A stretch of DNA of 64,000 bases from Peribacillus sp. ACCC06369 (GTDB taxonomy: Bacteria > Bacillota > Bacilli > Bacillales > DSM-1321). Position 1 is the stretch's first letter. Every line of letters begins with the position of its first letter. The position numbers and the translations under genes are program-made. This document shows positions 13,442 through 56,196 of this stretch, one piece after another. Location of the stretch: contig NZ_JAUCEN010000002.1 in the NCBI RefSeq assembly GCF_030348945.1, positions 4,650,001-4,714,000 of the forward strand, in the 5' to 3' direction. The notes beneath the pieces were generated by a model. That model searched no databases. It was not told the origin of the DNA and worked only from the letters and a program-made list of their open reading frames with translations.

Positions 13442-13597
13442 ATAATTCGTCCTTAATCCCCGATAATTCGTCCTTTGTGTGGGATATTCCGTCCTACATC
13501 CGGATAATTCGACCGATGTGTGGGTTTATTCGACCTACATCCGGATAATTCGACTGTTGTGTGGAATAATTCGACCTTCAACCAAAATTCGATCTTC
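13442..13597. repeat. Array A: eight ATTCGACC/ATTCGTCC cores at 20-21 bp spacing
   Basis: Cores start at about 13445, 13466, 13487, 13507, 13528, 13548, 13569 and 13587, giving spacings of 21, 21, 20, 21, 20, 21 and 18 bp. From 13487 on two spacer types alternate (TACATCCGGATA and GATGTGTGGG). The core read on the other strand is GGTCGAAT, the same as in array B at 27.8 kb. The array lies between the end of the ABC permease gene and the start of the VanZ-like gene, both on the minus strand. It is non-coding. Confidence 0.85.
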
Positions 13598-13700
13598 TTC
13601 CAGTAAGACAAAAAGCCGGTTCCTCACGATCCAGGAATCCGACTTTGTTTTACGTTATTCAGATGTAATCATCTTAGCAAGGATTGGTATTTAATCCTCA

Positions 13701-14717
13701 TTATAAGGCACGGTATTTTTTTAAACTGATGATATTGATGGTTATAAAAACGACGGAAAATGCCAGGAGAATGAGTAAATCCAGTAAAATATCATTAAAT
13801 GTGAAACCTTTGTACATAATGCCGTTCATGGCATCCGACGCGTAATAAAGCGGCATGACCTTGCCTATTTTTTGCAGCCAGTCTGCCATGCCATCTAATG
13901 GGAAAATCCCTGTAAAGAAGACTTGCGGCACGATGACCAGCGGAATGAATTGTACCATTTGGAATTCAGATGTTGCGAAACTCGATAGTAAAGTACCAAG
14001 CGATAATGCAACGAGCGCGACGAGTATATTCGTCAATAAAACGAGCCATATTGAGCCAACAAGCACGATATCCAGCACATTTACAGCATATAGGACGACT
14101 ATTATCGTTTGAATAAGAGCAAATAAGCCATATCCGATCACATAACCCGCTACGATTTCGTATCGTTTAATCGGTGTCGCAAGCAGCCGTTCCAACGTAC
14201 CACTTGTTCGCTCCTTCAAAAGCGCAATACCCGCTATTAAAAATACGAAGAAGAAAACGAAAAAGCTAACGAGCATCGGACTGAAAGTATCAAAACCCTT
14301 TGTGTTTGCATCCCCGTAAACAAATTGCTCCTCAATGGAAGGAGTATTTTTCTGTTTCCCTTGCAACGCCTGCATCATTTCCATTTGAACGGCCTTTGCT
14401 CGAGCCGGTTCGTCGTTTAACAGCGTCAGTTTTATCTGGCCATTTTCAACATGCAACCAGCCATCCGTAGTATTTTCAATCATTCTTTCCTTAGAAAACT
14501 TCTCAGCAGCCGTTACTTGAAAATCCGCTTGTTTCAATGCTTTAACCAGAGTTTCATCACTACCTGTAACAACGATTTCCAAATCACTCGCTTCTGTATC
14601 GAAAATAAAATACATGAGCGTTAAAATGAGCAATGGAGCAAGGAAAAATAAAGCGAGTGTCCTTCGATCCCGGCGCATCTGCTGTATAATTCGAGTAACA
14701 AGAGAGGCAATTCTCAT
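13701..14717 (-). CDS. ABC-2 type exporter permease
   Basis: A 338-residue membrane protein: one N-terminal span (residues 21-40), a large extracytoplasmic domain (45-165), then five spans (about 170-335), the usual ABC-2 layout. The block KERTSGTLERLLATPI near residue 188 is the family's conserved cytoplasmic loop. It overlaps the ATPase gene by 4 bp (ATGA), so the two are translationally coupled. Together they should form an exporter for a drug, lipid or peptide. The divergent TetR gene probably controls it. Confidence 0.9.
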   Translation of the reverse strand: MRIASLVTRIIQQMRRDRRTLALFFLAPLLILTLMYFIFDTEASDLEIVVTGSDETLVKALKQADFQVTAAEKFSKERMIENTTDGWLHVENGQIKLTLLNDEPARAKAVQMEMMQALQGKQKNTPSIEEQFVYGDANTKGFDTFSPMLVSFFVFFFVFLIAGIALLKERTSGTLERLLATPIKRYEIVAGYVIGYGLFALIQTIIVVLYAVNVLDIVLVGSIWLVLLTNILVALVALSLGTLLSSFATSEFQMVQFIPLVIVPQVFFTGIFPLDGMADWLQKIGKVMPLYYASDAMNGIMYKGFTFNDILLDLLILLAFSVVFITINIISLKKYRAL

Positions 14718-15439
14718 GATAGTCCACCTCCAATCCTCAAAAAAACATCATCAAGCGTTTCCACTGCATATTGTGTTTTTAAAGCTGCCGGTGTTCCTGA
14801 TGCGATTATTTCACCTTCACGGAGCATCGCCAGTTTATCGCATCGTTCCGCCTCATCCATCACATGAGTCGTGATGATGATCGTCTTATGATCTTCATTT
14901 CTTAAACGTTCAAGTTCCTGCCAAATGGATTGTTTCAGCAAAGGGTCTATCCCTACGGTCGGTTCATCCAAAATGAGGATCTCCGGGTTTTGGATGAGTG
15001 CTACCGCCAGTGACAGACGCCGTTTCATCCCACCGGAATAATACGCTACCCGAACGTTCAAATCATTCGTCAATTGTACGATTTCAGCTGCATATCGAAT
15101 GCGTTCCCTTCGCTCCTTTTTCGATAAACGGTAAAGCTTCGCAAAAAATGCGAGATTTTCAGCTCCCGTCAGTTCTGTATATAAAGCATCGGACTGTGCC
15201 ATATAGCCGACATCCATTAACAGTGCTTCATTTGGCACTTCATGATCAAGAACCGTGACTTTACCCGCATCGGGCTTAATCAATCCGACAATCATTTTAA
15301 TCAAGGTCGTCTTTCCGCATCCGGATGGACCTAGCAAGCCGAAAATCCCATTTTTTTCTATATTCAGGTTCAATGGCTGAATGACCTTTTTTTGGTGAAA
15401 ATCTTTAGCAATTCCTTCAATGGAAATAGCATTTTTCAT
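14714..15439 (-). CDS. ABC exporter ATP-binding protein
   Basis: A 241-residue nucleotide-binding subunit. Walker A is GPSGCGKTT (about 38-46), the Q-loop is in GYMAQSDALY, the signature motif is YYSGGMKRRLS, Walker B is ILILDEPTVGID, and the switch His is in IIITTHVMDE. ATG 15439 is chosen because it follows GAGGAAGGATG and starts the typical NAISIEGIAK strand; an earlier in-frame ATG has no site. It is the first gene of the exporter operon and is divergent from a TetR gene 119 bp away. Confidence 0.93.
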   Translation of the reverse strand: MKNAISIEGIAKDFHQKKVIQPLNLNIEKNGIFGLLGPSGCGKTTLIKMIVGLIKPDAGKVTVLDHEVPNEALLMDVGYMAQSDALYTELTGAENLAFFAKLYRLSKKERRERIRYAAEIVQLTNDLNVRVAYYSGGMKRRLSLAVALIQNPEILILDEPTVGIDPLLKQSIWQELERLRNEDHKTIIITTHVMDEAERCDKLAMLREGEIIASGTPAALKTQYAVETLDDVFLRIGGGLS

Positions 15440-15558
15440 TGTACACACATCCTTCCTCTTTAATTGACACGGTGTTGAGTGTATCATCATTCTAAGGTAG
15501 CATTTGGTCTAATACAATCAACATATTTGGAAAAAATGTTAAGTGAAGGAGACATTTC

Positions 15559-16158
15559 ATGGGATCGATTCATGAGGATATGGTACATAAAACGAAACTG
15601 CAGATACAACATCATTTTATTGCACTCGTAGAGGCAGAGGGGTTCTCACATGTAACAGTGAAGAAAATTGCGGAACGCGCTAACATTAATCGGGGCACAT
15701 TTTATTTGCATTATACGGATAAATATGAATTGATGGATCACTTACAGCAGGAATTGTTAAATGAACTTCAAACACGGATTACTGCCATTCTGCCGAAAGA
15801 GGCTTTTTTGGCTCTTCATCATCAACAACTTTACCCGCCCTTCGTAGCAATTTTTCAATTCATTAGTGAACATGCACATGCATTAAGGGCCATTCTTGGT
15901 GATCAGGGCGATCCTTCTTTTGCAAAAAAAATAAAGCGTGTATTCGGTGAAGTGCTGTTGGAGCGACTAATCAGCCAGCATCCAGCAGCAAAAGATGAGG
16001 CGTTTCGTAAGTATATGCATGCCTTCATGACATCAGCGATTTTAGGCGTGATACAGGAGTGGCTGGAGAATTGCGACGGCCAAACGGTGGAAGAAATGGC
16101 GAAAATTCATTTTCAAATCTTGAACTTCATCAGCCAAGTGCGGACATTCGTTCAATGA
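15559..16158 (+). CDS. TetR-family transcriptional regulator
   Basis: A 199-residue protein. Residues 12-58 form the TetR helix-turn-helix (VTVKKIAERANINRGTFYLHY), and the rest is a helical ligand-binding domain. ATG 15559 follows GAAGGAGACATTTC. It diverges from the ABC exporter operon across a 119-bp region, the usual arrangement for a local repressor that releases the exporter genes when its ligand binds. No operator dyad is obvious to me in that spacer. Confidence 0.92.
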   Translation: MGSIHEDMVHKTKLQIQHHFIALVEAEGFSHVTVKKIAERANINRGTFYLHYTDKYELMDHLQQELLNELQTRITAILPKEAFLALHHQQLYPPFVAIFQFISEHAHALRAILGDQGDPSFAKKIKRVFGEVLLERLISQHPAAKDEAFRKYMHAFMTSAILGVIQEWLENCDGQTVEEMAKIHFQILNFISQVRTFVQ

Positions 16159-16170
16159 AGTTTTTATAAG

Positions 16171-16197
16171 AGGCATGTTCCATTTACATGCCTTTTA
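16171..16197 (+). terminator. Intrinsic terminator between convergent genes
   Basis: The stem AGGCATGT...ACATGCCT is followed by TTTTAT. It lies between the convergent TetR and MFS genes. Confidence 0.75.
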
Positions 16198-16204
16198 TAA
16201 AAAG

Positions 16205-17452
16205 TTACATTTTTTCCCCGGCATTCCCAATGGAATAATACCTGCTCTTCGAGGCCTTCATACTAAGTATGGACAGTAAAATTGATACGGCGAACATGAT
16301 CATGGTACCTGAAATGACCACCAACCTAATCGAAATGAAATGAGCTGAGACACCAACAATCGCTGTAGTCATGATGATCAGTAAAGCTTCCAACAAGCCA
16401 AAAATACTTCGAACCCTCCCCATAATCTCCACTGGAATATTATTTTGATAAAATGTTTGAAATCCTGTGTTGGCAAAAGCCAGTGAAAAGGCAATGATGA
16501 AAAATCCGATGGCGGCCATCGAAAAGGAATTTGAAAGGGCATAGATCACATAACCTATCGATACAAATAAAGATCCAAGTCCAATTAGGTACGATATTGG
16601 TATTTTATTGATGAATACCGCATTGACTATTGCACCCGCAATGATGCCTGCCCCGGCGATGCTTACAAGGAATCCGTAATCGCTGTCCGACAAAAGGAGC
16701 ACGGCCTTGGCAAACACCGCTTCTTGGGAATCCATGGCCGTTTCCATTACTACCATACAGCTGAATAAGAAATAAATGAGCATGATATAGGAAAATTTCC
16801 GGCTGAAGTCCATGACGATGCCCCAATCCTTTTTCATGATGGTCCAAGACAGGTAATGACTGGATTGTTCAAGGGAACGTCCCTTTTCAAGATCGGGCAT
16901 GAATAGAGTGATGATGCCGGATAATAATAAGGCAGCCGCGTTAATGTAAATGGCTAAAACGGGTGTACCGATCAAGAAAAGGAGACCCGCTATCGCAGGT
17001 CCAATCAAAAAAGCCCCAGAATCCATTAAGCTTCGTAACGAGTTAAATCGTTTCCTCTGTTCAATGGGTATTAATTTTGTTATATAAGATCTTGATGTCG
17101 TTCCGAACATGGCCCCTGCCATATTGATCACGAAGACAAGGGAATAGATGACCCAAATAGAAGAAGTCAATGGCAGCAAGGCTATGAATACCGCTCGAAA
17201 TAGGTCAAGTGCCACCATTAGATTCCGCTTATTTATCCGGTCAATCACGCTGCCTGCCCAAACATTCGTAAATATGGCAGCCATCGGTTTAACGATATAA
17301 AGTCCAGCTACCGCTAAAGCTGAATCAGTCATATCCAGCACGATTAAATTAAGTGCAATAAAATAAACCCATGCACCAAAGTTGGAAATCCCGATCCCGC
17401 ACAATAGGATGGAAGGATATTTCCAAGCTACTAATGAATTTTTTAATGTCAA
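16205..17452 (-). CDS. MFS transporter (MFS_3, macrolide/siderophore exporter-like)
   Basis: A 415-residue protein with about twelve membrane spans. The loop 2-3 motif AGSVIDRINKRNLMVALD (about 61-78) and the GTTSRSYITKLIP stretch after span 4 match the group that includes Mef-type macrolide exporters and EntS. The TTG start at 17452 is well supported by GGAGGAGAAGCG. A structured leader with an intrinsic terminator lies directly upstream (17488-17690), so expression is probably controlled by attenuation. The substrate is unknown. Confidence 0.88.
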   Translation of the reverse strand: MTLKNSLVAWKYPSILLCGIGISNFGAWVYFIALNLIVLDMTDSALAVAGLYIVKPMAAIFTNVWAGSVIDRINKRNLMVALDLFRAVFIALLPLTSSIWVIYSLVFVINMAGAMFGTTSRSYITKLIPIEQRKRFNSLRSLMDSGAFLIGPAIAGLLFLIGTPVLAIYINAAALLLSGIITLFMPDLEKGRSLEQSSHYLSWTIMKKDWGIVMDFSRKFSYIMLIYFLFSCMVVMETAMDSQEAVFAKAVLLLSDSDYGFLVSIAGAGIIAGAIVNAVFINKIPISYLIGLGSLFVSIGYVIYALSNSFSMAAIGFFIIAFSLAFANTGFQTFYQNNIPVEIMGRVRSIFGLLEALLIIMTTAIVGVSAHFISIRLVVISGTMIMFAVSILLSILSMKASKSRYYSIGNAGEKM

Positions 17453-17487
17453 CGCTTCTCCTCCTTAGAAAAAGAAATATAAACAAT

Positions 17488-17690
17488 AAAAAAATCCCAT
17501 CCCCAGGAAAGGCTTCTCTGGGACGAGATCAATAGTGCGGTGTTACTACGCACCATAACGGAAGTTCCCGTCACAGCATCCCCTTCCCATACTGGAGAAT
17601 TGCTTCAATTTATGCTTACTCCTTCCAGTTGACGGTGCTCTCTGAAATGTGGTCATTCCATTTGCTTTCTCTTCATTACATCCAGATTCA
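17488..17690 (-). promoter_or_regulatory. T-box-like leader with attenuator, upstream of the MFS gene
   Basis: Read on the minus strand, the leader starts ATGAAGAGAAAGCAAATGG and carries the AGAGAGC bulge motif (17637-17643), nested stems CCGTCA...TGACGG and ACTGGA...TCCAGT, a conserved-looking CCGTTA, then GGTGCG...ACACCGCAC, and an intrinsic terminator (stem CCCAG...CTGGG ending in T7 at 17488-17494). The order matches the stem I-antiterminator-terminator layout of T-boxes, and the 5' part resembles the clear T-box at 26.6 kb. A possible specifier is GCA (Ala), after GAA and before A. The T-box sequence itself is atypical (AACACCGCAC rather than GGTACCGCG), so the class is uncertain. A promoter TTTACA-N18-TAAAAT lies just upstream. 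Confidence 0.5.
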
Positions 17691-17849
17691 TCATTTTTCT
17701 AAATTTTAACATTATTGTATTAATAGTGTAAACGTCATAATTTTCAACGCAAAAAAACTCATTCAAAAATAAATGAGTTAGCAAAACAAGTTATGGATTT
17801 TTCGCTCTAGTTCCCGGATAGTACACAGGATGACATAATTTCAGTTGAT

Positions 17850-18041: not shown

Positions 18042-18384
18042 AATTGCCCGCCTTTTTTATAAAATGTTTGAAACCTTTAAATAAGAATGCCATACTTTTT
18101 TTTTTATGATTTTCAAAAGAAAAATAATTTATTTATATTAGAAAATAGATTTGCAATGACATGTTCTGCTTGAAAGTATTGAATAAAGTACATCGATGTT
18201 GGTCATCATAATCGCCTTAATCGAACCTATCATAATGTGCTAACTAATATTTGTCAATACGTTTTTAAAATGTAAATAAAACGTAAATTTTCAGTCTTGT
18301 TAAAGAAATATTTTTTTACACTTTAGGGGTTTACAACTGCTAAATGATGGGAGTAGAATACGTTTATCAATTTAATGCATTTCG
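18042..18384. other. AT-rich intergenic region
   Basis: No gene is seen. The right end should carry the promoter of the riboswitch-ktrBA transcript; a TTTACA (near 18313) to TAGAAT (near 18353) region is AT-rich but no clean hexamer pair stands out. Confidence 0.4.
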
Positions 18385-18547
18385 GCCAAAACTCAAGGGA
18401 ATTGAGTACGGAGGACCCAATCATTTGGGGTTAATTCTGCCTTGCAGAAGGGATGAGATCAGCTCTTTCGCCATCCTACCCGTCAGCTAACTTCGTCGGC
18501 TAAAGCGAAGGAGGTCATAAGACCGCCTATTTCGGGAGCTTTTTTTG
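18385..18547 (+). promoter_or_regulatory. c-di-AMP riboswitch (ydaO-yuaA type)
   Basis: It carries the conserved blocks of the family in order: CGGAGGACCCAA, TTTGGGGTTAATTC, a GGGATGAGATCAGC stretch, TTTCGCCATCCTACCCGTCAGCTAAC, then CTTCGTCGGC, followed by an expression platform with a hairpin and T7 (18541-18546). This class turns off potassium uptake genes when c-di-AMP is high and is known upstream of ktrAB in Bacillus. Here ktrB starts 138 bp downstream. Confidence 0.92.
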
Positions 18548-18684
18548 CACTCTTTTTGTGACAAAAAAGCCTTTCGATGTTTTCGCAGGTCTTTTTATTA
18601 TGCTTTGAAAAAGATTTATAAAGAGGATTGATGGTTAAGATTTCATAAGTTTTACACAATATTTTTATAGGTAGGGATGATCAT

Positions 18685-26452: not shown

Positions 26453-26612
26453 CTCCTATTAACCGAATGGTGCTTCTCTTGAATAGTAATTCTATGTTCT
26501 TTATAAAATCCCTTTTTCGTCCAGTTTACCTATATTAAGAGAAACAACCATTGATTTTATTTTCTGACTATTGTACAATGACTCAAATTCATCTAATTTC
26601 ATTTAAAATTCC

Positions 26613-26873
26613 ATGAAGGGAAAAAGTACGTTATAGTTTCTGTTCCAAAGAGAGCTGGTGCTTTGCTGAAAGCCAGTGTCCAGAATATAACCGAAGATCA
26701 TCCCTGAGAAGTAAAGCCGAATCCTTAGTAAGCTTTATCGGTTTCCCCCGTTATAAGGGACAACGTATTATTGTACGTTCGTAAAGGGTAGTAATTTGCT
26801 TTCGAAGCATTTTATTAAACAAGAGTGGTACCGCGAGTTCAAATCTCGTCTCTTAATGAGACGGGATTTTTTG
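26613..26873 (+). promoter_or_regulatory. T-box leader upstream of the ATP-grasp gene
   Basis: A canonical T-box: stem I with the AGAGAGC bulge (26649-26655) and a GAAGATCATCC specifier region (26693-26703), then the T-box sequence AGAGTGGTACCGCG (26822-26835) and a terminator CTCGTCTC...GAGACGGGATTTTTT (26845-26872). The specifier is either ATC (Ile, 26697-26699, followed by the expected purine A) or GAT (Asp, one base earlier); ATC fits the usual spacing better. Low charging of that tRNA should allow read-through into the ATP-grasp gene. Confidence 0.93.
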
Positions 26874-26915: not shown

Positions 26916-27740
26916 ATGCAGACACTATTATTCGTAACAGATTTAAACTATGAAGCAAAAGGAAGAAATTATTACGAGGAGGATTTATATCTAACTTCAA
27001 AACTTAGGGAAGATTTTCAATTGGTCATTTGTCATCCTGAAGATATTGAAACGTTTGAAAAGGATTTTGACCTAATTGTATTTCGAAATGCTGGTCCAGT
27101 AGCAAATTTTAAAGATAAGTATCAAGCATTCCGTAAAAGAGTGGCTACCAATCATTTGAAAACTTACAATTCATTTATAGGAAAGGCTGATATGAACGGA
27201 AAAGAATACTTAATAGAACTAACGAATGCTCAATTTCCTGTCATTCCAACTATCGATACGGTTCACTCCCTAGATAAACTGCCTAATGTAGACACGTATA
27301 TCGTAAAGCCGAAAGATGGAGCGGATTCTATCGGTTTGGAATTTGTTACGAAAGATGCATTGAATGGCAAAGTTAATTCTGAATTGAAAAATACATTGGT
27401 ACAACCATTTATCAATTTTGAATATGAAGTCTCATTTTACTTTATCGATACAGAATTTCAGTATGCCCTTTATGCTCCGGATAAAGAGAAAAGATGGGAA
27501 TTGAAAGAATATGCACCTACTGAAGAAGATCTAGCTTTTGCTCAACAATTTATTGAATGGAACAACCTTGATTGGGGGATTCAACGAGTTGATGCGTGCC
27601 GGAATGAACATGGTGAACTATTATTAGTTGAACTGGAAGATTTAAATCCCTATCTTTCTTTGTTGGAATTAACCGATGAAACACGCCAGAAATTCGTAGA
27701 AGCCCTGAAAAAATCAATCCAGAAAGCACTGGAAGCTTAG
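26916..27740 (+). CDS. Small ATP-grasp ligase under T-box control
   Basis: A 274-residue protein. The N-terminal 75 residues form a Rossmann-like preATP-grasp domain (LLFVTDLNYEAKGRNYY). Residues 95-270 carry ATP-grasp features: the first-strand lysine in YIVKPKDGADSIGLEFV, LVQPFINFEYEVSFY, and the metal-binding block LLLVELEDLNPYLSL. ATP-grasp enzymes of this size usually join an amino acid or small acid to an amine through an acyl phosphate. ATG 26916 follows GAGGTGCAGG. The amino-acid-responsive leader suggests an amino acid-related substrate (inference). Repeat array B follows directly. Confidence 0.85.
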   Translation: MQTLLFVTDLNYEAKGRNYYEEDLYLTSKLREDFQLVICHPEDIETFEKDFDLIVFRNAGPVANFKDKYQAFRKRVATNHLKTYNSFIGKADMNGKEYLIELTNAQFPVIPTIDTVHSLDKLPNVDTYIVKPKDGADSIGLEFVTKDALNGKVNSELKNTLVQPFINFEYEVSFYFIDTEFQYALYAPDKEKRWELKEYAPTEEDLAFAQQFIEWNNLDWGIQRVDACRNEHGELLLVELEDLNPYLSLLELTDETRQKFVEALKKSIQKALEA

Positions 27741-27742: not shown

Positions 27743-27914
27743 TGTCGAATGAAGTGTGTGTAGCTCGAATTACTGCGGGGACGGTCGAATAAAGCACGCG
27801 GTAGCTCGAATTACTGCGGGGACGGTCGAATAAAGTACGCGGTAGGTCGAATTACTGCGGGGACGGTCGAATAAAGTACGCGGTAGGTCGAATTACTGCG
27901 GGGACGGTCGAAAG
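27743..27914. repeat. Array B: nine TCGAA cores at alternating 20/21 bp
   Basis: Cores TCGAAT (last copy TCGAAA) start at about 27745, 27765, 27785, 27806, 27826, 27847, 27867, 27888 and 27908, giving spacings 20, 20, 21, 20, 21, 20, 21 and 20. Two spacers alternate strictly (TACTGCGGGGACGG and AAAGTACGCGGTAGG), so the true unit is 41 bp with about four copies. Most cores read GGTCGAAT, the complement of the array A core. It starts 2 bp after the ATP-grasp stop codon and ends 115 bp before the next co-oriented gene. Confidence 0.9.
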
Positions 27915-28028
27915 TAAGAAGACTGATCTCATTACTCCCCAATTAAATTGTCCAAACGATAATAATAATTTGGTCTAAACGAAGTACGCTAAAGCTAGCT
28001 TTATTTAATAAAATATGAGGTGGTTAAT

Positions 28029-28349
28029 TTGAAACAATATCATGATTATTATCAAAATCTATTAAAAAGACTTTGTAAAGCTGATAATATCTCTCCTCGA
28101 AAACCTAGGTTTGAAAATATTGAAGATCTAGTAATAATTCATGTTAAAAATCATTTGAAAGAAGGAGTAGATTTAGAATGTTTTAAGATTTTAAATCTTA
28201 TTTATCAAACAGTCGTACCTTTAGGTATAAAATTCAATCAACAGTTATATTTATATCCAAATGGAGATAGATTAGATAGAGTAGCGATAACCTTTAACAA
28301 AGATGATTATATACTTTTAAACAAAAAACTAGAAAATGGAGAGTTATGA
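28029..28349 (+). CDS. Hypothetical AT-rich small protein
   Basis: A 106-residue soluble protein (MKQYHDYYQNLLKRLCKADN, then HLKEGVDLECFKILNLIY, ending LLNKKLENGEL). The TTG start at 28029 is chosen because TGAGGTGG is six bases upstream. The coding sequence is distinctly more AT-rich than its neighbours, which suggests horizontal gain. I do not recognise the family. A probable terminator follows and array B lies upstream. Confidence 0.55.
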   Translation: MKQYHDYYQNLLKRLCKADNISPRKPRFENIEDLVIIHVKNHLKEGVDLECFKILNLIYQTVVPLGIKFNQQLYLYPNGDRLDRVAITFNKDDYILLNKKLENGEL

Positions 28350-37316: not shown

Positions 37317-37342
37317 CTTATTTATCGAGGAAGTATTTCGAT

Positions 37343-38079
37343 GATATATTGCGATTTTCGCTGATATATTTCATTTTTCGGAGATATATCCCGATTTTCG
37401 CTGATATATTGCATTTTCCGATAGATATATTGCGATTTCGTCGATATATTTCATTTTTCGGAGATATATCCCGATTTTCGTCGATATATTGCGATTTCCA
37501 ATAGATATATCCCGTTTTCGTCGATATATTGCCATTTCCTATTGATATATCCCGATTTTCGTCGATATATTGCAATTTCCGATTGATATATCCCGATTTT
37601 CGTCGATATATTGCAATTTCCGATTGATATATCCCGATTTTCGCTGATATATTGCAATTCCCGATAGATATATCCCGATTTTCGTCGATATATTGCCATT
37701 TCCGATAGATATATCCCGATTTCCGTTGATATATTGCAATTTCCGATTGATATATCCTGATTTCGTCGATATATTGCGATTTCCGATTGATATATCCCGA
37801 TTTTCGGAGATATATTGCGATTTCCGATTGATATATCCCGTTTTCGTCGATATATTGCAATTTCCGATTGATATATCCCGATTTTCGCTGATATATTGCG
37901 ATTTTCGTAGATATATTTCATTTTCCGGAGATATATTGCAATTTCCGATTGATATATCCCGATTTTCGTCGATATATTGCAATTTCCGATAGATATATCC
38001 CGATTTTCGTCGATATATTGCGATTTCCAATAGATATATCCCGATATCCGTTGATATATTTCATTTTTCGGAGATATAT
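37343..38079. repeat. Array C: 37 copies of GATATAT at 20-21 bp
   Basis: GATATAT occurs 37 times between 37343 and 38079, an average of about 20.3 bp apart. Two spacers mostly alternate (TGCAATTTCCGATT and CCCGATTTTCGTC), giving a 41-bp unit; many cores are the perfect palindrome GATATATC. Because the unit has no stop codon on the minus strand and 41 is not a multiple of three, all three minus-strand frames stay open for 160-220 codons; these are artefacts. The array lies between the bdbC terminator and the promoter of the oxidoreductase, both genes being on the minus strand. Confidence 0.92.
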
Positions 38080-38095
38080 CCCGATTTTCGTCGAT

Positions 38096-38134
38096 AAAAA
38101 AAGCACCATTCCTTGCAGACACAAGGAATGGTGC
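38096..38134 (-). terminator. Intrinsic terminator of bdbDC
   Basis: The perfect 13-bp stem GCACCATTCCTTG...CAAGGAATGGTGC is followed on the minus strand by T7. It separates bdbC from array C. Confidence 0.88.
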
Positions 38135-38143: not shown

Positions 38144-38557
38144 TCAGTTCTTTCCATTCTTCCTCATTAGCAATCCCATACAGATAGTAATGAGAGTAAA
38201 AGCAATAAAAGCCAAAAACGGGATCGTGATGAATCCTAGCCAATTTATATACTCGCCTGAGCAGGGAACACCGCTTTGGCACATTTCGAAATGCTGTAGG
38301 GCCGGAATTTTTTGCAGACTATAGTGATACCCTGACACCAACATGCCCAAAATCGATAATGGGAGGATGTATCGATGGATTTTCAGGTCTTGCTCATAAA
38401 AGGCCCGGCCCAATAAAATAACGAGCGGGTACATCAAGATCCTTTGATACCAACAAAAGGTACAAGGTACATAATGGAGAATCTCACTAAAGTAGAGACT
38501 TCCAGCAGTGGCAATGATGGATAGGATCCACGAAAATAATAGTGGTTTGTTCATCAC
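38144..38557 (-). CDS. bdbC: Disulfide bond formation protein (DsbB family)
   Basis: A 137-residue quinone-dependent thiol oxidase with four membrane spans. The first redox pair is CTFC in VPCTFCWYQRILMYP (about 32-40) and the second is in CQSGVPCSGEYINW (about 95-105). It re-oxidises BdbD and passes electrons to the quinone pool. Its GTG start overlaps the bdbD stop by one base, and its ribosome binding site (GAAGGAG) lies inside bdbD, so the two are coupled. Confidence 0.93.
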   Translation of the reverse strand: MMNKPLLFSWILSIIATAGSLYFSEILHYVPCTFCWYQRILMYPLVILLGRAFYEQDLKIHRYILPLSILGMLVSGYHYSLQKIPALQHFEMCQSGVPCSGEYINWLGFITIPFLAFIAFTLITICMGLLMRKNGKN

Positions 38558-40039: not shown

Positions 40040-43000
40040 TTATTTATACTTAGGAACTTCAATCGTCATTTTATAGGAATCTAGTAAACTATACAAATTA
40101 TAAATCTGTTTCACTTGTTTTGTTGCCCAGCCAATATCAGTTGCATACTGGTGTGAAGCATTTCCATTTTTCTCTGCAGCTGTAGGATTCCATCTCATTT
40201 TGTAAAGCGTGTCCTGTCCAGCAGAGATATACCCTTTGGCGATGAATTCGGCACCGCCTATTATGGCCGCTTCCGGGGTGAACCAGCCTGCTTTATATGC
40301 GTATTGAGCGCCGCTGCTTACCGCTGTTCCGTCAAAAGCTCCCACTCCGTACATATTATAGACCGTTTTCCCATTCACCTTAACTCCAGTTGCTAACGGT
40401 GAAGTACCGTTCCCGGTCTCCAGCAAAGCATGTGAAATCAGGTAAATTTCATTGACCCCATATTTTTCCCCTGCCGTAGTGAAGGTTGCAGCTTGGCCTT
40501 GTAAAATCCCTTTACCTGAAAGGATTCTAGCATTCACTTCAGAAACGTTCATGTTGGTGACCTGGGAGAGCTTAACGAACTGGAACGATTTGATTGGATC
40601 ATTCACAAAATTATCTGGGTTGAGATTATAGTTTATATCATCCGGACTGGCATTTACCCATGTCTTGTTATAACTCACTTCATACCAATAGTATCCGTCA
40701 GAGCCCTTTACTTTTGATTTAATATTCAATGATTGATTATTGCTGACGGCACCGACTGCCCAATAATTAGATCCAGCTCCGCCCCTAACACGCCATCCGC
40801 TTCCTTTTACCGTTCCCGTTGTTGAATTGATTAAAGTTAACCCATCCTCACGTATGTAGGTTTTATACGTTTTATCCGTTTGACCATTTACGGCCATTTG
40901 AATTTCAACCATCTTGTCCATCGTAAGATTGTACTCTTTATCGATCCTGATTATCGATCCATTCGAACTTCCTGGACCTTGTGCTTTAGCAGTTAAATAT
41001 TGCGTACTGACATATCCCGTTTTTCCATTAGCCGTGACCCTTGACCAACCATTGGACTCAGAATACACCGTTACGGCCGTATTGTTTACGAGTTTGGCTA
41101 TAATTGAAGCGGAAGCTGATGCAAAAGAGCGCATATTAAGACTGGAGCCATCATTCACTTTTACATATTTAACTAACGTGGTTTCTTCCTCGTCTGGATT
41201 GAGATTCGGGCTTTCCGGTACAGAACCAGGCTTCGTTGCTGATAGATATTGCGTATTGACATAACCTTCTCCGCCATACGCTTTTATTTTTGACCAGCCA
41301 TTTGATTCCGAGATGACTTCCACCTTCACACCCTTTGCCAATTTCACAATAACGGAAGCACTTTCTGACGGTTTATTCCGCATATTCAGAGAACCAGAGC
41401 TTACATTTACATATTTCACCGTCGTTTTTTCAGGTATGGAGGGTTTGGCTTCTGGCTTTGTTGTTGAAAGAAGGTCAGCACTGACATACCCATCTTGCCC
41501 ATTGGCTTTGATTTTCGCCCAACCTTTGGTTTCCGAATACACCGTTACTTGCGTTCCTTTTGAAAGCTTCGCGACTATGCTGGCACTTTCCGACCCGCTT
41601 TTTCTCATATTAAGCGTTCCTGAGCTTACATTGACATATTTCGTCGTCGTTTTATCAGGTATGGAGGGCGTGGTTTCCGTTCCTGGTTTTGTTGTCGATA
41701 AATATTTGGTGCTGACATGTCCGTCTTTTCCATTGGCCTTGATCTTCGCCCAGCCTTTGGATTCCAAATATACCGTCACTTTCGTTCCTTTTGAAAGCAT
41801 CGAAACTATGCTTGAACTTGCTGTACCACTTTTTCGCATATTAAGTAAACCCGTGTTCACATATTTCGTCGTCGTTTTTTCTGGCGTGGCTACTGTGGAT
41901 CCCGATCCCGGCTTTGACGTCGATAGATATTTGGTGCTGACATATCCGTCCTTTCCATTGGCTTTGACTTTCCCCCAGCCTTTGGATTCCAAATACACCG
42001 TCACTTTCGTTCCTTTTGAAAGCCTCGCGACTATGTTTGAACTTTCTGTACCACTTTTTCGCATATTGAGTGAACCCGTGTTCACATATTTTATCGTCGT
42101 TTTTTCAGGTGTGGCTACTGTAGTTCCCGATTCCGGCTTTGCAGCAGACAGGTATTTGGTGCTGACATAACCGTCTTTTCCATTGGCTTTGATTTTTGCC
42201 CAGCCATTGGATTCCGAATACACCGTCACTTTGGTTCCTTTTGAAAGCCTCGTAATTATGCTTGAACTTACTGTCGCGCTTTTTCGCATATTGAGCGTGC
42301 TTGCATTGACATATTTTGTCGTCGTTTTAACGGGTGCCGCAGCCTTGGTTACCGTACCAGGCTTCGTTGCCGATAGATACTTCGTACTGACATATCCGTC
42401 TTTTCCATTGGCTTTGATCTTCGCCCAGCCTTTGGATTCCGAATACACCGTTACCTGTGTGCCTCTTGTCAGCTTCGCGACTACGCTTGCACTATCTGCC
42501 CCACTTTTCCGCATAATAAGTGAACCTGTGCTCACATTCACATATTTCATTGTCGTTTTAACGGGTGCCGCAGCCTTGGTTACCGTACCAGGCTTCGTTG
42601 CCGATAGATACTTCGTACTGACATATCCGTCTTTTCCATTGGCTTTGATCTTCGCCCAGCCTTTGGATTCCGAATACACCGTTACCTGTGTGCCCCTTGT
42701 CAGCTTCGCGACTACGCTTGCACTATCCATTCCACTTTTGCGCATATTGAGTGAACCTGTACTGACATTCACATATTTCTCTGCCGTTTTAATGGTTACT
42801 GCAGCTTTAGTTAAAGTCCCTGGCTTCGTTGCCGATAAATACTTGGTACTGACATATCCATCTTTTCCATTGGCTCTGATCTTCGCCCAGCCTCTGGATT
42901 CCGAATATACGGTTACTTGTGTGCCTTTTGCCAGCTTTGCAACTATGCTTGCACTATCCCCACCAGTTTTTCTCATATTTAGCGAACCGGAATTTACATT

Positions 43001-43126
43001 TACAAACATGACGCTCTTTTCAATATTGGCATGCTCTGCTTGTAGTGGAGCTGCAGATATTTTTTCTTCGAAAGCAACTGTAGACAACACTGCAAAACAG
43101 AAAGTTGGTATAATTAATTTCTTCAT
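40040..43126 (-). CDS. Secreted N-acetylglucosaminidase autolysin with nine SH3 modules
   Basis: A 1028-residue exported protein. Residues 1-25 are a signal peptide (MKKLIIPTFCFAVLSTVA). Nine bacterial SH3 modules of about 75-80 residues follow (about 37-725), each with an LNMR(K/N/S) strand and a GWAKIKANGKDGYVS-type end, joined by Thr/Pro/Lys linkers; modules 2-3 are almost identical, pointing to recent duplication. A tenth, diverged SH3-like region lies about 770-850. The C-terminal 150 residues are a glucosaminidase domain (catalytic Glu in SHALLETGNGTS, then YNMYGVGAFDG and NPTAAEKNG) like LytD/LytG. It should cut glycan strands in the wall during growth or separation. Confidence 0.92.
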   Translation of the reverse strand: MKKLIIPTFCFAVLSTVAFEEKISAAPLQAEHANIEKSVMFVNVNSGSLNMRKTGGDSASIVAKLAKGTQVTVYSESRGWAKIRANGKDGYVSTKYLSATKPGTLTKAAVTIKTAEKYVNVSTGSLNMRKSGMDSASVVAKLTRGTQVTVYSESKGWAKIKANGKDGYVSTKYLSATKPGTVTKAAAPVKTTMKYVNVSTGSLIMRKSGADSASVVAKLTRGTQVTVYSESKGWAKIKANGKDGYVSTKYLSATKPGTVTKAAAPVKTTTKYVNASTLNMRKSATVSSSIITRLSKGTKVTVYSESNGWAKIKANGKDGYVSTKYLSAAKPESGTTVATPEKTTIKYVNTGSLNMRKSGTESSNIVARLSKGTKVTVYLESKGWGKVKANGKDGYVSTKYLSTSKPGSGSTVATPEKTTTKYVNTGLLNMRKSGTASSSIVSMLSKGTKVTVYLESKGWAKIKANGKDGHVSTKYLSTTKPGTETTPSIPDKTTTKYVNVSSGTLNMRKSGSESASIVAKLSKGTQVTVYSETKGWAKIKANGQDGYVSADLLSTTKPEAKPSIPEKTTVKYVNVSSGSLNMRNKPSESASVIVKLAKGVKVEVISESNGWSKIKAYGGEGYVNTQYLSATKPGSVPESPNLNPDEEETTLVKYVKVNDGSSLNMRSFASASASIIAKLVNNTAVTVYSESNGWSRVTANGKTGYVSTQYLTAKAQGPGSSNGSIIRIDKEYNLTMDKMVEIQMAVNGQTDKTYKTYIREDGLTLINSTTGTVKGSGWRVRGGAGSNYWAVGAVSNNQSLNIKSKVKGSDGYYWYEVSYNKTWVNASPDDINYNLNPDNFVNDPIKSFQFVKLSQVTNMNVSEVNARILSGKGILQGQAATFTTAGEKYGVNEIYLISHALLETGNGTSPLATGVKVNGKTVYNMYGVGAFDGTAVSSGAQYAYKAGWFTPEAAIIGGAEFIAKGYISAGQDTLYKMRWNPTAAEKNGNASHQYATDIGWATKQVKQIYNLYSLLDSYKMTIEVPKYK

Positions 43127-51856: not shown

Positions 51857-52027
51857 TTATTTAAAGAAAGTGATATTTAATTTACTCCTAATTATTAATA
51901 CTGATATCAGGAGTAATAAGTTTATACTCATAAAATTTGAATCAGTAATGAGATTAAATGAATATCTTAATCCGAATAGGATAATTAAACTTAAAATAAC
52001 CATTGTCAAAAAAATGAAATTCCTCAA
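51857..52027 (-). CDS. 56-residue two-span membrane protein
   Basis: A short frame starting MRNFIFLTMVILSLIILFG and ending RSKLNITFFK. Two hydrophobic stretches (about 3-20 and 35-47) are joined by a polar loop. The TTG start at 52027 is preceded by AAGAGGTGAG at the right distance. It lies between the VOC gene and the GH8 gene on the same strand but is separated from both by more than 50 bp. No family is recognised. Confidence 0.6.
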   Translation of the reverse strand: MRNFIFLTMVILSLIILFGLRYSFNLITDSNFMSINLLLLISVLIIRSKLNITFFK

Positions 52028-52082
52028 TTAACTCACCTCTTTCATCATTCCAAATTCCGGACATATCAATCTTACCCCTTGG

Positions 52083-52769
52083 TCATTCCACTTTTTTCAA
52101 CTCCATAAGGCCTTCGCCATCCAATGAAATTTCTAATTGCTGATTAACGACTATCGAAAGCGGAAAGATTTCCGACTCTCTATCCGAAAAGATCCACCGC
52201 CGTTTACTTGGACCTAAAAGTAAAAACGAACCTGCTTCATGTTCCCCCATGAAATTCAATCCATCTTCACTTAACGTTTCAGCCTTCCTTACGGGTACAC
52301 CAAAACTGACCAACTGATTTCCCAAGCTCCTTACTTCATTCGTCGTAATGTTTATTTCACTAATACACAGAACGTTTTGAGCTGAGAAAGACTCCGCCTC
52401 AGATTTGGGTGATACGGAATATCTGGAAATGAACTCGACAATGTTGCCTGAAGGGTCTGAAAAATAAAAGGCATGTGCATTTGAATAGCTGAAATAAACT
52501 TCGTCCACATCATCTTCTCTAGTCAATTCCACTTTTGATTTCGCCCATGCTTTGGCCGAAGTGAATAAATTGGTCGGTATATTCATGGCAAAATGATAAA
52601 AAGGCTTTTCCTGGAGATGATATTTTTTAATTTCAAGCACACTGTCCCCTGCCTTAATTTCAAAACCATCATCAGTATGCGATAGTAACTCAAATCCTAA
52701 CTCATTAACATAAAAATTCCGCATATCATTCAATGCATGACTATACAAAGTGACCTTATTGATAATCAA
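52083..52769 (-). CDS. VOC-family protein (tandem glyoxalase domains)
   Basis: A 228-residue protein. The first VOC module (about 1-118) is well conserved: KVTLYSHALNDMRNFYVNELGF, then HAFYFSDPSGNIVEFISRY. The second (about 130-225) is diverged. Known relatives include CatE/CppA-like dioxygenases and fosfomycin-type enzymes; here metal ligands are partly visible (His in FYHFAMNI, Glu in NIVEF). The TTG start at 52769 follows AGGGGGATT. The reaction is unknown. Confidence 0.8.
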   Translation of the reverse strand: MIINKVTLYSHALNDMRNFYVNELGFELLSHTDDGFEIKAGDSVLEIKKYHLQEKPFYHFAMNIPTNLFTSAKAWAKSKVELTREDDVDEVYFSYSNAHAFYFSDPSGNIVEFISRYSVSPKSEAESFSAQNVLCISEINITTNEVRSLGNQLVSFGVPVRKAETLSEDGLNFMGEHEAGSFLLLGPSKRRWIFSDRESEIFPLSIVVNQQLEISLDGEGLMELKKVE

Positions 52770-52839
52770 AGTTTAATCCCCCTTCTCCCAAACCCGTACT
52801 CTTCATTTACATATTAAAATATATATATTCATATTCACT

Positions 52840-53139
52840 TTACCTATTTTTACCACAAATAGCCAATGGAATATCCCTTAATTTTTCGGCCAGCCAACTC
52901 AAAAAGGACCACCAAATCGGTGGTCCCCCGTATACATATAGTAAAGGCGGCCTTATTGAAAAAATATCTCCGCCAGCGCAGTTTACGATGGTTCCATTTA
53001 ACATGATCGCCCCTGTTGTTGAAGCAAAAATGACCATGTCGGCAATTTCTTCTACCGTAGCTGAAATGTTCGGCCCTGTTGGAGAACCATTAATTAAACC
53101 ACTTTGTTTTGAATCATTTCTCCTACTCCATTTGGTCAT
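52840..53139 (-). pseudogene. Remnant of a short-chain dehydrogenase (C-terminal part)
   Basis: An open frame of 99 codons. Its middle part (GPNISATVEEIADMVIFAST, then NGTIVNCAGGDIFS) matches the C-terminal end of classical SDR enzymes, where homologues have a VDGG-type motif. The N-terminal Rossmann fold with TGxxxGxG and the Ser-Tyr-Lys catalytic residues are absent, and the sequence after GGD is out-of-family read-through. This is therefore the tail of a deleted SDR gene, next to the pentapeptide gene. Confidence 0.65.
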
Positions 53140-53168
53140 GTATTTTCATCTTTTCATCTTAAAAAGGA

Positions 53169-53816
53169 TCATTCTTTAATTTTCATTCCAAGCATGGCTG
53201 CAAAGCCTATCGCTTGGTCCGGGGAAACTTCGCATCCATTTAAATCCTCCAGGGATACGGTAAGCCTTTGAAATGTAGAACTGCTAATATCGATTCCTTT
53301 GAGCGGTGTCCGGGAAAAGTTCGCTTCATTTAATCTACATGTTTCGATCTTCACTTTAATGAATTTACACTCATAATAATCAGCACTTTCCATTGAGCAA
53401 TGATCGAACTTCACTTGCTTCAAACCGGAATAACCGAATGCACTTAAATTCAAGTTGCAATTCTCAAAAGAGACATTGCCTAAACTTGCGTCAGACAGGT
53501 TAATGCCTAAAAGTTTGGACTCCTTGAATTCCACCCGATGAATCGAGCCACCCATGAAATCGGCATTCGTCAAATCGCAATGGTCAAAAATGACATCCGT
53601 CAGCTCGATATTCCTGAAAGATACATCGCTGAATATCACATTTTTAAAAACAACCTGTGATAATACGATTTTGTCCATTTTTTCTCTATCGATCGTGCAG
53701 TTAGTTATGATACAGGACTCAAGATAAGGCTCATCCTGATAATATATTTCCTGAAAGTTCGCTTGAGTTAAGTCTTGGGGGATCTTTGGCTGTTCAATTT
53801 TGATTTTGCCTGACAT
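53169..53816 (-). CDS. Pentapeptide-repeat protein (Qnr-like C-terminus)
   Basis: A 215-residue right-handed beta-helix protein made of A(D/N)LXX- and FXX-type units over residues 45-195 (DLTNADFMGGS, ESKLLGINLSDASLGN, ESADYYECKF). The C-terminal tail CEVSPDQAIGFAAMLGMKIKE is split as NGCEVSPDQAIGFAAML plus GMKIKE and closely resembles the dimerisation tail of Qnr/MfpA-like gyrase-protecting proteins. A role in topoisomerase protection is therefore possible but unproven. ATG 53816 follows AAAAGGTGAT. Confidence 0.85.
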   Translation of the reverse strand: MSGKIKIEQPKIPQDLTQANFQEIYYQDEPYLESCIITNCTIDREKMDKIVLSQVVFKNVIFSDVSFRNIELTDVIFDHCDLTNADFMGGSIHRVEFKESKLLGINLSDASLGNVSFENCNLNLSAFGYSGLKQVKFDHCSMESADYYECKFIKVKIETCRLNEANFSRTPLKGIDISSSTFQRLTVSLEDLNGCEVSPDQAIGFAAMLGMKIKE

Positions 53817-54085
53817 ATTATCACCTTTTCGCTTTATTTCTTTTTCCCAACTACTGCATCACACTTCTTTACAGGAAACAGTACGTTTTGCTTTTAACAG
53901 CGTATCCCTTTATTTGAAAGGTGCGGTGCATTGAACCGATAAGGGTTCACCTCTGGTAATATAGCAACTGGTCTACTCAATTTCGGCTTAAATATAAACT
54001 ATATTTCGGTGAAGTTCAATCTAAGAATTTTACGAAAATGACTATTATTTTTGGTACTTTTGTGTCACCTTTGCCACTGCAAATT
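53817..54085. other. Intergenic region, nothing recognised
   Basis: 269 bp containing the promoter side of the pentapeptide gene; no RNA motif or gene was seen. Confidence 0.4.
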
Positions 54086-54108
54086 AAAAAGCTGCCTCAT
54101 CGGCAGCC
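54086..54108 (-). terminator. Terminator of the membrane protein gene
   Basis: On the minus strand GGCTGCC...GGCAGC is followed by TTTTTAATTT. Confidence 0.8.
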
Positions 54109-54116
54109 TTGTGACT

Positions 54117-54596
54117 TTAAATTTCAGTATTGAATCCTGTTGGCATCCGGAAATAATATATAGCTGCGCCCATTATCGCTATCATTCCACCTATCAGGAA
54201 AAAAGTTTGAAAGATATTTCCTCCAACAGTCGGGGAAGCGGATATGAAACCACTTGAAATCAGAAAAAGGACCCCCAATCCAGCCAAAAATAGTGCTATC
54301 TTTTTAATGCTTCTTTTGAATAAGGTATAACCCGTAAATATGATTATATATGAAGCGGTAAGGGCCATTAGAAATGGAAATAACGGCTTGAATTTTGCGG
54401 CATACACGAAATGATCCAAATTCGAGATATCATGTGCCTCCATCACCTCATCATCACTTACTTGTGAAAAATGCGCGGAATACTTCCATTCCCAAGGTTC
54501 ATCCAGAATTTCGCTGCCTTCAAACCATGCACAAAATGAAAATACCATAAAGAAAAGTGCAGCGATTATTATTTGCAAAAAATATTTAAAAGTCAA
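54117..54596 (-). CDS. Membrane protein of unknown function (DUF4306-like)
   Basis: A 159-residue protein with four membrane spans (about 5-22, 76-95, 101-117, 132-152) and an outer loop carrying WFEGSEILDEPWEWKYSAHF. The PWEWKYS motif is typical of a small Bacillus membrane family that I recall as DUF4306; no function is known. TTG 54596 is preferred because the site GGAGGAG abuts an ATG two codons upstream and is properly spaced from the TTG. Confidence 0.65.
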   Translation of the reverse strand: MTFKYFLQIIIAALFFMVFSFCAWFEGSEILDEPWEWKYSAHFSQVSDDEVMEAHDISNLDHFVYAAKFKPLFPFLMALTASYIIIFTGYTLFKRSIKKIALFLAGLGVLFLISSGFISASPTVGGNIFQTFFLIGGMIAIMGAAIYYFRMPTGFNTEI

Positions 54597-54748
54597 TGCC
54601 ATCTCCTCCAGCCGTCATCATACCAATAAATGGGTAAAATTCACACTCAATCTTGAAACAAAACTGTCTTTATACCCCAAAGCAATATGTAAACATACAC
54701 TGTTTCCTGAATAATATAATGTAACCACTTTTAAGGAGCGTTTAAGAT

Positions 54749-55399
54749 ATGATCACTCATGGAGATGACCTCCTTATTTCAGGAGCATGGTTACTGGGCC
54801 TCGGTACACTCGTAGGTGCAATCGGTCAAACCCGGCAAACTTTAACGGGCACTAATCTCGGCAAAGATCTGGTCCTCAAAGGGAATGTCATTGAAGCGGT
54901 TGGAAATTCGCTGCAAGCAATCGGCCGGACGAAAATGCTGAATTCGGAAAATGAACGTTCCGAAACCTATTTCATATTCGGTGGTTGGCTTGAGGCTGCT
55001 GGTAATACCGCAAATGCAGTTGGAATAGATATCCAGTTGAGTGGTTCAGAAGAAGAGGGCACCAGAACCGATGCACTCGGCAGTGGAATCCAAGGCCTAG
55101 GTGCCGCTTTTGAAGCATTCGGGGCATCACTGACGGAGGCGACATTTTCACGCTCTCTAGAGATCAAAGGAAATGGCCTCATTGCTGCAGGTTCTTTTTT
55201 GGAATCGATCGGAAATATTTTCATTTTGAATGAAAAACGACGGATGGGAGAGCAAATTCTTTTGCTTGGCAGCTGGACCCAAGTTATCGGTGCATTCATA
55301 TTAATCGATGCCTTATCCATTGGACCAGAACCCGAACAACCTGAGAAAGGTAAGGATGAACATAACGGCCATTATAGCTATGCAAACTATTACGCATGA
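54749..55399 (+). CDS. Repetitive glycine-rich protein (DUF6944-like)
   Basis: A 216-residue protein built from about six repeats of roughly 30 residues with the pattern G-x-x-h-x-x-h-G-x-x-h-x-A-h-G (for example SGAWLLGLGTLVGAIGQ, KGNVIEAVGNSLQAIG, GGWLEAAGNTANAVG, GSGIQGLGAAFEAFG, KGNGLIAAGSFLESIGN, LGSWTQVIGAFI). Ala/Gly/Leu-rich amphipathic helices may pack side by side or on a membrane. The tail HNGHYSYANYYA is polar. ATG 54749 follows AAGGAGCG. It resembles a Bacillus-specific repetitive family of unknown function, and array D begins 220 bp downstream. Confidence 0.7.
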   Translation: MITHGDDLLISGAWLLGLGTLVGAIGQTRQTLTGTNLGKDLVLKGNVIEAVGNSLQAIGRTKMLNSENERSETYFIFGGWLEAAGNTANAVGIDIQLSGSEEEGTRTDALGSGIQGLGAAFEAFGASLTEATFSRSLEIKGNGLIAAGSFLESIGNIFILNEKRRMGEQILLLGSWTQVIGAFILIDALSIGPEPEQPEKGKDEHNGHYSYANYYA

Positions 55400-55618
55400 A
55401 ATTGGCTGGTAATTAAGTGCCTGCAAGTTCGACTTTCATCAAGAACCCTTGTTTCCGCTTGTACAAAAACAATGCATATACTTCTCATCCAATTTCCAAC
55501 TCTTCCCGCTTCCCCTCCTGGAATGGCTCATAGCTCATCCCCTCCAAAAACCAATGGTCCTGTTTAAATTTGATACATACAGCTCAAAATTATCATCGCT
55601 TTTCGTAAATTTCGGCAC

Positions 55619-56196
55619 TTTACTCGTGAATTCGGGACTTTTACTCGTGAGTTTCGGCGTTACTCGTGAGTTTCGGCTCTTTACTCGTGAATTCGGGGCT
55701 TTTACTCGTGAGTTTCGGCTCTTTACTCGTGAATTCGGGGCTTTTACTCGTGAGTTTCGGCTCTTTACTCGTGAATTCGGGGCTTTTACTCGTGAGTTTC
55801 GGCGTTACTCGTGAGTTTCGGCTCTTTACTCGTGAATTCGGGGCTTTTACTCGTGAGCTTCGGCGTTACTCGTGAGTTTCGGCTCTTTACTCGTGAATTC
55901 GGGGCTTTTACTCGTGAGTTTCGGCCTTTTACTCGTGAATTCGGGGCTTTTACTCGTGAGTTTCGGCCTGTTACTCGTGAATTTGGGGCTTTTACTCGTG
56001 AGTTTCGGCTCTTTACTCGTGAGTTTCGGCCTGTTACTCGTGAGTTTCGGCTCTTTACTCGTGAGTTTCGGCTCTTTACTCGTGAATTCGGGGCTTTTAC
56101 TCGTGAGTTTCGGCTCTTTACTCGTGAGTTTCGGCCTTTTACTCGTGAGTTTCGGCCTGTTACTCGTGAATTTGGGGCTTTTACTCGTGAGTTTCA
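55619..56196. repeat. Array D: 28 copies of TTACTCGTGA at 19-21 bp
   Basis: ACTCGTGA occurs 28 times from 55622 to 56190. Nearly all steps are 21 bp; a few (ending GTTTCGGCG) are 19 bp. Two spacers partly alternate (GTTTCGGCTCT or GTTTCGGCCTG, and ATTCGGGGCTT). Most cores followed by GT have the near-palindrome ACTC-GT-GAGT. Since 21 is a multiple of three, plus-strand frames stay open and encode heptads such as TREFRLF; there is no ribosome binding site, so these are artefacts. The array lies between two co-oriented genes and ends about 75 bp before the MarR operator. Confidence 0.92.

Follow-up and report, generated by a model that had tools for sequence, protein, structure and literature searches.

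Tandem arrays of short directional cores, recurring every 20-21 bp in intergenic DNA, are described here from a 64,000-nucleotide stretch of Peribacillus sp. ACCC06369 (contig NZ_JAUCEN010000002.1, positions 4,650,001 to 4,714,000; hereafter the window), from elsewhere in the same genome (the own genome), and from related genomes. We consider it probable that they are dispersed recognition arrays of proteins combining a NERD domain, a Cys4 ribbon and a winged helix, and that they were perhaps spread by these proteins. In the sequences compared, NERD genes and arrays are linked, core and protein diverge together, the dispersed core is the one that flanks the gene, and a putative nuclease motif is conserved. 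Most of the genes follow one plan: an array of the gene's own core lies ∼100 bp before the start codon, just past the stop codon, or in both places, and the same core is scattered through intergenic DNA, mostly near the 3' ends of genes. The window contains four arrays, A to D, which the first-pass annotation had regarded as unrelated. A and B have one core (GGNCGAAT / ATTCGNCC), and the window therefore holds three families, with the cores GGNCGAAT (A), ATATATCNNCGAA (C) and TCACGAGTAA (D).

NERD genes beside arrays in Peribacillus

The partner genes lie outside the window. The first two cases were NERD genes enclosed by paired arrays ∼1.1 kb apart, built of D cores in the one genome and of A cores in the other; a third case followed. 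The gene model used is incomplete, and some genes it missed, including NERD genes enclosed by paired arrays, were found by direct reading of the sequence. A Pfam search for NERD in 36 Peribacillus genomes (the genus set) gave 106 matches; 73 loci were read, 40 of them hand-chosen and non-random, and a gene was scored as linked if an array above a set threshold lay within 900 bp of it.

An array adjoined 46 of the 55 full-length NERD genes with a Cys4 ribbon (43/52 without the three discovery cases) and none of the ten ribbon-less genes of at least 270 amino acids, a group that takes in L316 (a C-type gene with an altered end) and L338. NERD fragments had an array in 4/5 cases and short ribbon-bearing genes in 1/3. 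Sorted by length, 46/58 NERD genes of 300-370 amino acids were linked, 17 of them on both sides, as were 5/15 of other lengths. At two control lag sets none of the 73 loci scored, and among 499 ordinary genes of the own genome 18 had an array (Fisher p 3.8e-41), a number that fell to 5 with one control lag set. From the end of an upstream array to the start codon the median distance is 102 bp (quartiles 81-117, 69 arrays), and from the stop codon to the beginning of a downstream array it is 22.5 bp (quartiles 14-47, 44 arrays). A few of the core calls behind these medians are doubtful, for example those of L296 and L363 and the far downstream ones at L403 and L406.

For all three core families the genus contains a matching gene, predicted to encode the NERD-ribbon-winged helix combination. 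NERD genes in genomes without the A, C and D families mostly have other cores, for instance GGCTACAAA in G005 and CAGACGGGA in G019. The partner protein has ∼323 residues, with the NERD domain followed by the Cys4 ribbon and a C-terminal winged helix. NERD (PF08378) was the sole Pfam match above cut-off in 6/6 proteins (62.3-79.9 bits; cut-off 22.1), and across 31 NERD proteins E45, D78, E91 and K93 are invariant and the four cysteines nearly so. A structure model predicts a nuclease fold of PD-(D/E)XK type, near those of Can2/Card1-type nucleases, together with the winged helix. NERD proteins had no plasmid match, and 83 matches to one peptide pattern included no confirmed viral contig. One phage record matches a NERD protein at 29.6% identity over 58% of the protein, and the NERD part matches a PHROG family without assigned function (E down to 4.3e-8).

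Agreement of core and protein

Core and protein diverge together. Among 41 Peribacillus NERD proteins, a core run of at least 8 was common to 111 of the 144 pairs above 60% identity, compared with 7 of the 676 pairs below it (Mantel r 0.83; 0/2000 permutations). The comparison omitted L351 and L355 (two genes at one locus) and, excluded by hand, L296, L363, L318, L329, L308, L328 and L316, whose arrays are unclear.

The distribution of the families among genomes was compared by setting core pairs, counted by pattern and entered by hand, against NERD proteins at 60% identity or more. A pairs number 14 or more in each of the ten genomes with an A-type gene or remnant and at most 8 in 25 of the 26 others. 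A D-type gene or remnant is present in 16 genomes, 12 with 120-366 D pairs and four with variant cores (0, 0, 0 and 19 D pairs); of the 20 genomes without one, 15 have zero D pairs, G020 has 4 and G273 has 1. C pairs (1-21) occur in 15 of the 16 genomes with a C-type gene or remnant, and six of the 20 without one have 1-17.

A prediction was also made from gene to genome. The core ACTCGCCA, taken from the flanks of D-type NERD genes in G013 and G017, is dispersed in both genomes (109 and 99 pairs); elsewhere among the 36 it gives 1 pair in G273, 2 in G002 and zero in the remaining 32.

The four arrays of the window

The four arrays are all present where the first-pass annotation had placed them:

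13441..13594, minus strand: array A, 8 cores, which read GGNCGAAT in the direction of the neighbouring genes; core-to-core steps of 18-21 bp; follows the terminator-like stem of an ABC permease gene
27744..27912, plus strand: array B, 9 cores (GGTCGAAT and close variants); core-to-core steps of 20/21 bp (mean 20.38 bp); 41-bp unit
37335..38096, minus strand: array C, 38 cores (TTCGNNGATATAT on the plus strand, ATATATCNNCGAA on the minus strand); steps 19-21 bp (mean 20.27 bp); 41-bp unit
55603..56195, minus strand: array D, 28 cores (TCACGAGTAA on the minus strand, TTACTCGTGA on the plus strand); mean step 20.78 bp

The copy numbers first given, about 8, 9, 37 and 28, hold for A, B and D, and C has one copy more than the 37 reported. 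In A, seven cores follow the pattern and the eighth is a degenerate copy inside a 41-bp step; B starts 4 bp past the stop codon of the preceding gene; in D, 24 of the 27 steps are 21 bp and 3 are 19 bp. Cores had also been described as containing palindromes, which the data do not support: they are directional, copies within one array run head-to-tail in one direction, and exact cores in both orientations occur in none of 77 classified arrays (those of the own and related loci with both neighbours called, many of the loci having been fetched for holding arrays).

The spacing itself is narrowly kept. In the own and related loci, 623 of 644 distances of up to 110 bp between consecutive cores fall within 1.6 bp of a multiple of 20.5 (D 376/383, A 192/204, C 55/57). 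The proposal that all cores face the same side of the helix survives as a local possibility; because the mean spacing in C is 20.3 bp, strict phase over its 38 copies would need slight overtwisting.

Many of the cores read, though not all, fit a general form in which CG or GAC precedes an A/T-rich part; this is an impression only. The A core GGNCGAAT resembles the 0A box bound by Spo0A, but C and D cores do not fit it, and this candidate was dropped. The arrays do not look like clustered regularly interspaced short palindromic repeats (CRISPR), in which longer repeats alternate with unique spacers next to cas genes: steps are 19-21 bp, spacers recur, and none of 10 flanking proteins matched a Cas family above cut-off.

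Periodicity and spread of the cores

An excess at 20-21 bp in intergenic DNA, which the first-pass annotation had made a check of its idea, is plainly present in the own genome. The sample comprised 1.664 Mb (80 stretches of 20 kb plus the 64-kb window, which lies on a 5.47-Mb contig) of the 5.62-Mb genome, 406 kb of it intergenic, and repeats were counted as non-overlapping 7-mers by lag. Intergenic repeats numbered 81 at lag 20 and 295 at lag 21. Lags 40, 41 and 42 gave 92, 161 and 291, and the counts peaked again at 60-63 and 81-84; other lags between 8 and 89 gave 17-54, except for 69 at lag 30. In genic DNA, repeats fell at multiples of three with a minor peak at 21. Sixteen intergenic arrays exceeded the threshold in this sample, four of family A, three of C and nine of D, compared with 2, 0 and 0 for three control lag sets. 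Twelve of the 16 lie within C2 3.996-5.382 Mb, a region contributing 524 kb to the 1,664-kb sample. At C2 ∼4.388 Mb (L100, 14337-15174), one gap has a D-family array immediately followed by an array of a fourth core, ATCGATCAAACTC.

Paired cores of the D, C and A families occur in 18, 21 and 24 of the 36 Peribacillus genomes, with 1-483 pairs per positive genome, and reversed family patterns gave at most 3 matches per genome. An order-wide scan of 249 genomes found D pairs in the own genome (483) and G006 (270), and a single match in each of two other genera.

One-off slippage, which absence of the arrays from all other strains would have indicated, is refuted by array C: among 17 Peribacillus genomes in which the neighbouring gene has an orthologue at 78% identity or more, nine have 2 to 20 exact C cores in its gap. 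Array B was found in three further genomes (G006, G016, G022) and was missing in five, of nine genomes with the neighbouring gene, and D cores also occupy the array D gap in G004, G016 and G006. A possible core swap at locus D was not counted: the A cores that precede the MarR gene in G013 are separated from it by another open frame. In G007 a long run of N separates two D arrays (L206, ∼5300-7850); arrays thus also sit at assembly gaps, and copy numbers taken from draft genomes are uncertain.

NERD genes of the own genome

The own genome has one intact NERD gene, of C type (∼C2:5,072,435-5,073,448, minus strand), with C cores 53 bp before its open frame. An A-type gene, now broken, is flanked by A arrays near C2:3,668,640-3,669,610. 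A Pfam search of this genome gave no D-type NERD match. Twelve relatives have D-type loci (one of them a fragment) whose two flanks match the own genome at ∼85-94%, and where they have array, gene and array, the own genome has only a short array at C2:3,740,085-3,740,254, most simply explained as a solo array left by recombination between two arrays. By sequence, then, array C belongs with the intact NERD gene, A and B with the broken one, and D with one absent from its usual place. D pairs are most numerous in this genome and yet the D-type gene is absent from its usual place, so arrays can outlive their protein.

NERD genes and arrays in other genera

A profile of the 31 NERD proteins, whose alignment held one HRDC-like NERD (L340, without array), was run against 60 genomes of further genera, one of them entered twice. 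It matched in 46, with up to 14 matches per genome. A later search listed many NERD-HRDC proteins. Thirty loci were fetched from the profile matches, two of them from one genome; an array lay near 26 of the 30 (26 of 29 distinct), mostly with cores of its own, and none scored at control lags. Nine loci were added by hand, among which L404 has no array.

The orthologue of the array C gap in three Fictibacillus records contains an array with a step of ∼20 bp and another core, CGCTCAAAA. In the Fictibacillus record L170, the core in the bdbC (disulfide oxidoreductase) gap is the same as on both flanks of a NERD gene of that genome, L405, one of four NERD loci read there. In Fictibacillus G282, seven NERD genes were read and seven different cores found.

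Arrays were also seen at Fictibacillus L164, 3214-3327 (core CGCAAGTAA; 10 NERD-profile matches in the genome), and in Sporosarcina, with 20-21 bp steps and own cores, at L190 80-221 and at L191 311-417 and 1084-1322 (11 and 14 NERD-profile matches in the respective genomes).

Interpretation

The first-pass annotation had seen in the arrays a family of protein-binding or structural elements, diverse in sequence and constant in geometry. Diversity with kept geometry is what we find, and a bound protein fits it best; the description as four unrelated, palindromic arrays does not stand. Under the reading that we favour, the winged helix very likely reads the core, with subunits in head-to-tail order, one for every two helical turns, which would explain why core and step are kept while spacers drift. 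Control of the NERD gene by its own product, bound at the upstream array, is suggested by the narrow range of distances, and we regard it as an evenly balanced proposition. The nuclease may also nick or cut at arrays, with repair and recombination expanding, contracting and copying them, a step in which we have somewhat less than even confidence. Taken together, this would be a satellite system comparable to RAYT-REP in its working but built on an unrelated enzyme. On a wider scale we propose, tentatively and from sequence comparison, that the Bacillales may carry an unrecognised system of NERD nucleases and co-evolving phased satellites, in several versions per genome, in which the protein would read the core via its winged helix, multimerise at the two-turn step and write intergenic arrays by nuclease-primed repair.

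Several observations weigh against recognition and spreading by NERD proteins. By threshold, 9 of the 55 full-length ribbon-bearing Peribacillus genes have no array, as have 3 of the 29 distinct loci outside the genus, and the control of 499 ordinary genes was drawn from a single genome, the own one. Joint divergence of core and protein is in part shared descent. Many pairs occur where no matching NERD gene was found: 150 A pairs in G019, D pairs in the own genome (G000, 483), G001 (170) and G022 (35), and C pairs in G005 (17), G014 (13), G004 (8) and G268 (6), which means either that arrays outlive the protein or that gene matching is incomplete. The core of the Fictibacillus array L166, from a different strain than L170, stands beside none of the seven NERD matches read of the eight in its genome, and the reversed ACTCGCCA control gave 0-14 matches per genome, with 14 in G014. 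Finally, restraint of some kind would be needed by a nuclease whose own chromosome offers it hundreds of sites.

NERD proteins might instead be bound at gene ends to organise or insulate the chromosome, the arrays arising by slippage and recombination and being kept by selection for binding, with no spreading by the nuclease. Core and step are kept while spacers differ, divergent gaps are rare for arrays (5/77, against 149/746 gaps), there is no sign of phage or plasmid carriage, and a polymerising protein was also proposed in PMC8161180. Nevertheless, the 31 proteins compared show no variation at the presumed active-site residues, a constraint not needed if the role were purely structural, and the genome richest in D arrays has no D-type gene at the usual place; we judge this explanation unlikely. 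A nuclease could also be employed in defence, with arrays that hold or mark it on the host chromosome while invading DNA is attacked. NERD domains are known in defence proteins, the predicted fold is near Can2/Card1-type nucleases, genomes hold several versions, and PADLOC matched two proteins to PglW (E 0.0075, 3.1e-4) and one to a candidate defence family (E 0.0054). These matches are weak and fall on the NERD part, however, and the D-type genes occupy the same place in twelve relatives, unlike defence genes, which are usually patchy in distribution, so that a role in defence or self-marking appears highly improbable.

As a further alternative, the arrays might be transcribed into small RNAs or RNA sponges, a role suggested for the 52-nt repeats; in Bacillus coagulans, satellites of 52 nt are reported to be transcribed (PMC8161180 and the follow-up on transcription, PMC8625621). 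Array C, in contrast, directly adjoins the T run of a strong terminator and array A lies behind a terminator-like stem; A-family arrays in co-directional gaps run 7 in one sense and 8 in the other; no Rfam match was found at the arrays; and the partner looks like a DNA-binding nuclease. We hold an RNA function to be extremely improbable.

Relation to known systems

RAYT enzymes are HUH (Y1) transposases and their REPs are palindromes. The NERD genes resemble them in that a chromosomal enzyme gene is flanked, with exceptions, by its genome-dispersed repeat, that enzyme and repeat diverge together and that repeats can outlive the enzyme. They are not members of that system, because the enzyme is a NERD protein with a predicted PD-(D/E)XK-type fold instead of an HUH Y1 transposase, and the repeats form directional tandem arrays with a two-turn step instead of palindromic single repeats. 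In plasmid iterons and ParR-parC centromeres, head-to-tail sites about two helical turns apart are bound one after another, and the gene for the binding protein is often next to them. The arrays share this layout, including the frequent position beside the gene of the putative binder, but occur chromosome-wide rather than at one or two places on a plasmid, and the protein has a nuclease domain.

The closest likeness is to the 20-21 and 52 nt repeats of Bacillus that Subirana and Messeguer described as constant in size, variable in sequence and unexplained (PMC8161180). In their account the simplex group is rich in 21-nt repeats, B. simplex and B. muralis have families in common, and the two helical turns were remarked upon, with a polymerising protein or a small RNA suggested. 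The arrays described here agree with those of 20-21 nt in being intergenic, in their step, short conserved core and several families per genome, and in being carried by the simplex group (Peribacillus). That account, as excerpted, names no partner gene, whereas here there are a link to NERD genes, joint divergence, a 41-bp higher-order step and occurrence in other genera. Searches of one open-access library turned up no partner gene for such arrays in print, and none of the titles and abstract openings returned for NERD domains concerns them.

If real, a NERD-satellite system of the Bacillales would explain the published enigma of constant-size 20-21 nt repeats. A gene family that co-varies with its repeat core opens direct tests of which protein acts at which site and of what the nuclease does, and it would offer dozens of natural protein-site pairs for learning how winged helices read DNA, as well as a second, unrelated bacterial case in which an enzyme gene is paired with dispersed repeats of its own.

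Genes and other features around the arrays

The neighbours of the four arrays are as follows:

12710..13360, minus strand: VanZ-like family gene (Pfam PF04892), downstream of array A
13701..14717, minus strand: ABC-2 type transporter permease gene (Pfam PF12698), 3' end facing array A; orthologues in relatives
26916..27740, plus strand: gene with a weak ATP-grasp match below cut-off, directly before array B and behind a T-box leader
28020-28349: short open frame next to array B, without family match
38103..38134, minus strand: strong intrinsic terminator of the disulfide oxidoreductase gene, its T run abutting array C
38144..38557, minus strand: disulfide oxidoreductase gene (DsbB/BdbC-like; PF02600, NF002849), upstream of array C
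56325..56753, plus strand: MarR-family regulator gene (PF12802 / PF01047), behind array D; orthologues in relatives

The terminator-like stem that precedes array A is common to relatives. The co-oriented setting that had been ascribed to the gaps applies to A-D (to B only if the open frame at 28020-28349 is a gene), and it is not general: the 77 classified arrays lie in 39 co-directional, 33 convergent and 5 divergent gaps. All own-genome gaps of at least 100 bp comprise 485 co-directional, 112 convergent and 149 divergent ones under the incomplete gene model. In co-directional gaps, cores run with and against transcription in 13 and 1 cases for D, 9 and 1 for C, and 7 and 8 for A; no orientation rule is claimed, because the C cases come for the most part from a single orthologous locus and the senses of D and C relative to the NERD gene do not agree.

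The window also contains a T-box leader (26604-26856) and a cyclic di-AMP (c-di-AMP) riboswitch (18374-18516), both ordinary. A 225-bp tandem repeat at 41379-42988 lies inside a long open frame (40040-43126, minus strand) and is probably coding, because related loci have repeats of 204-231 bp near the same place.

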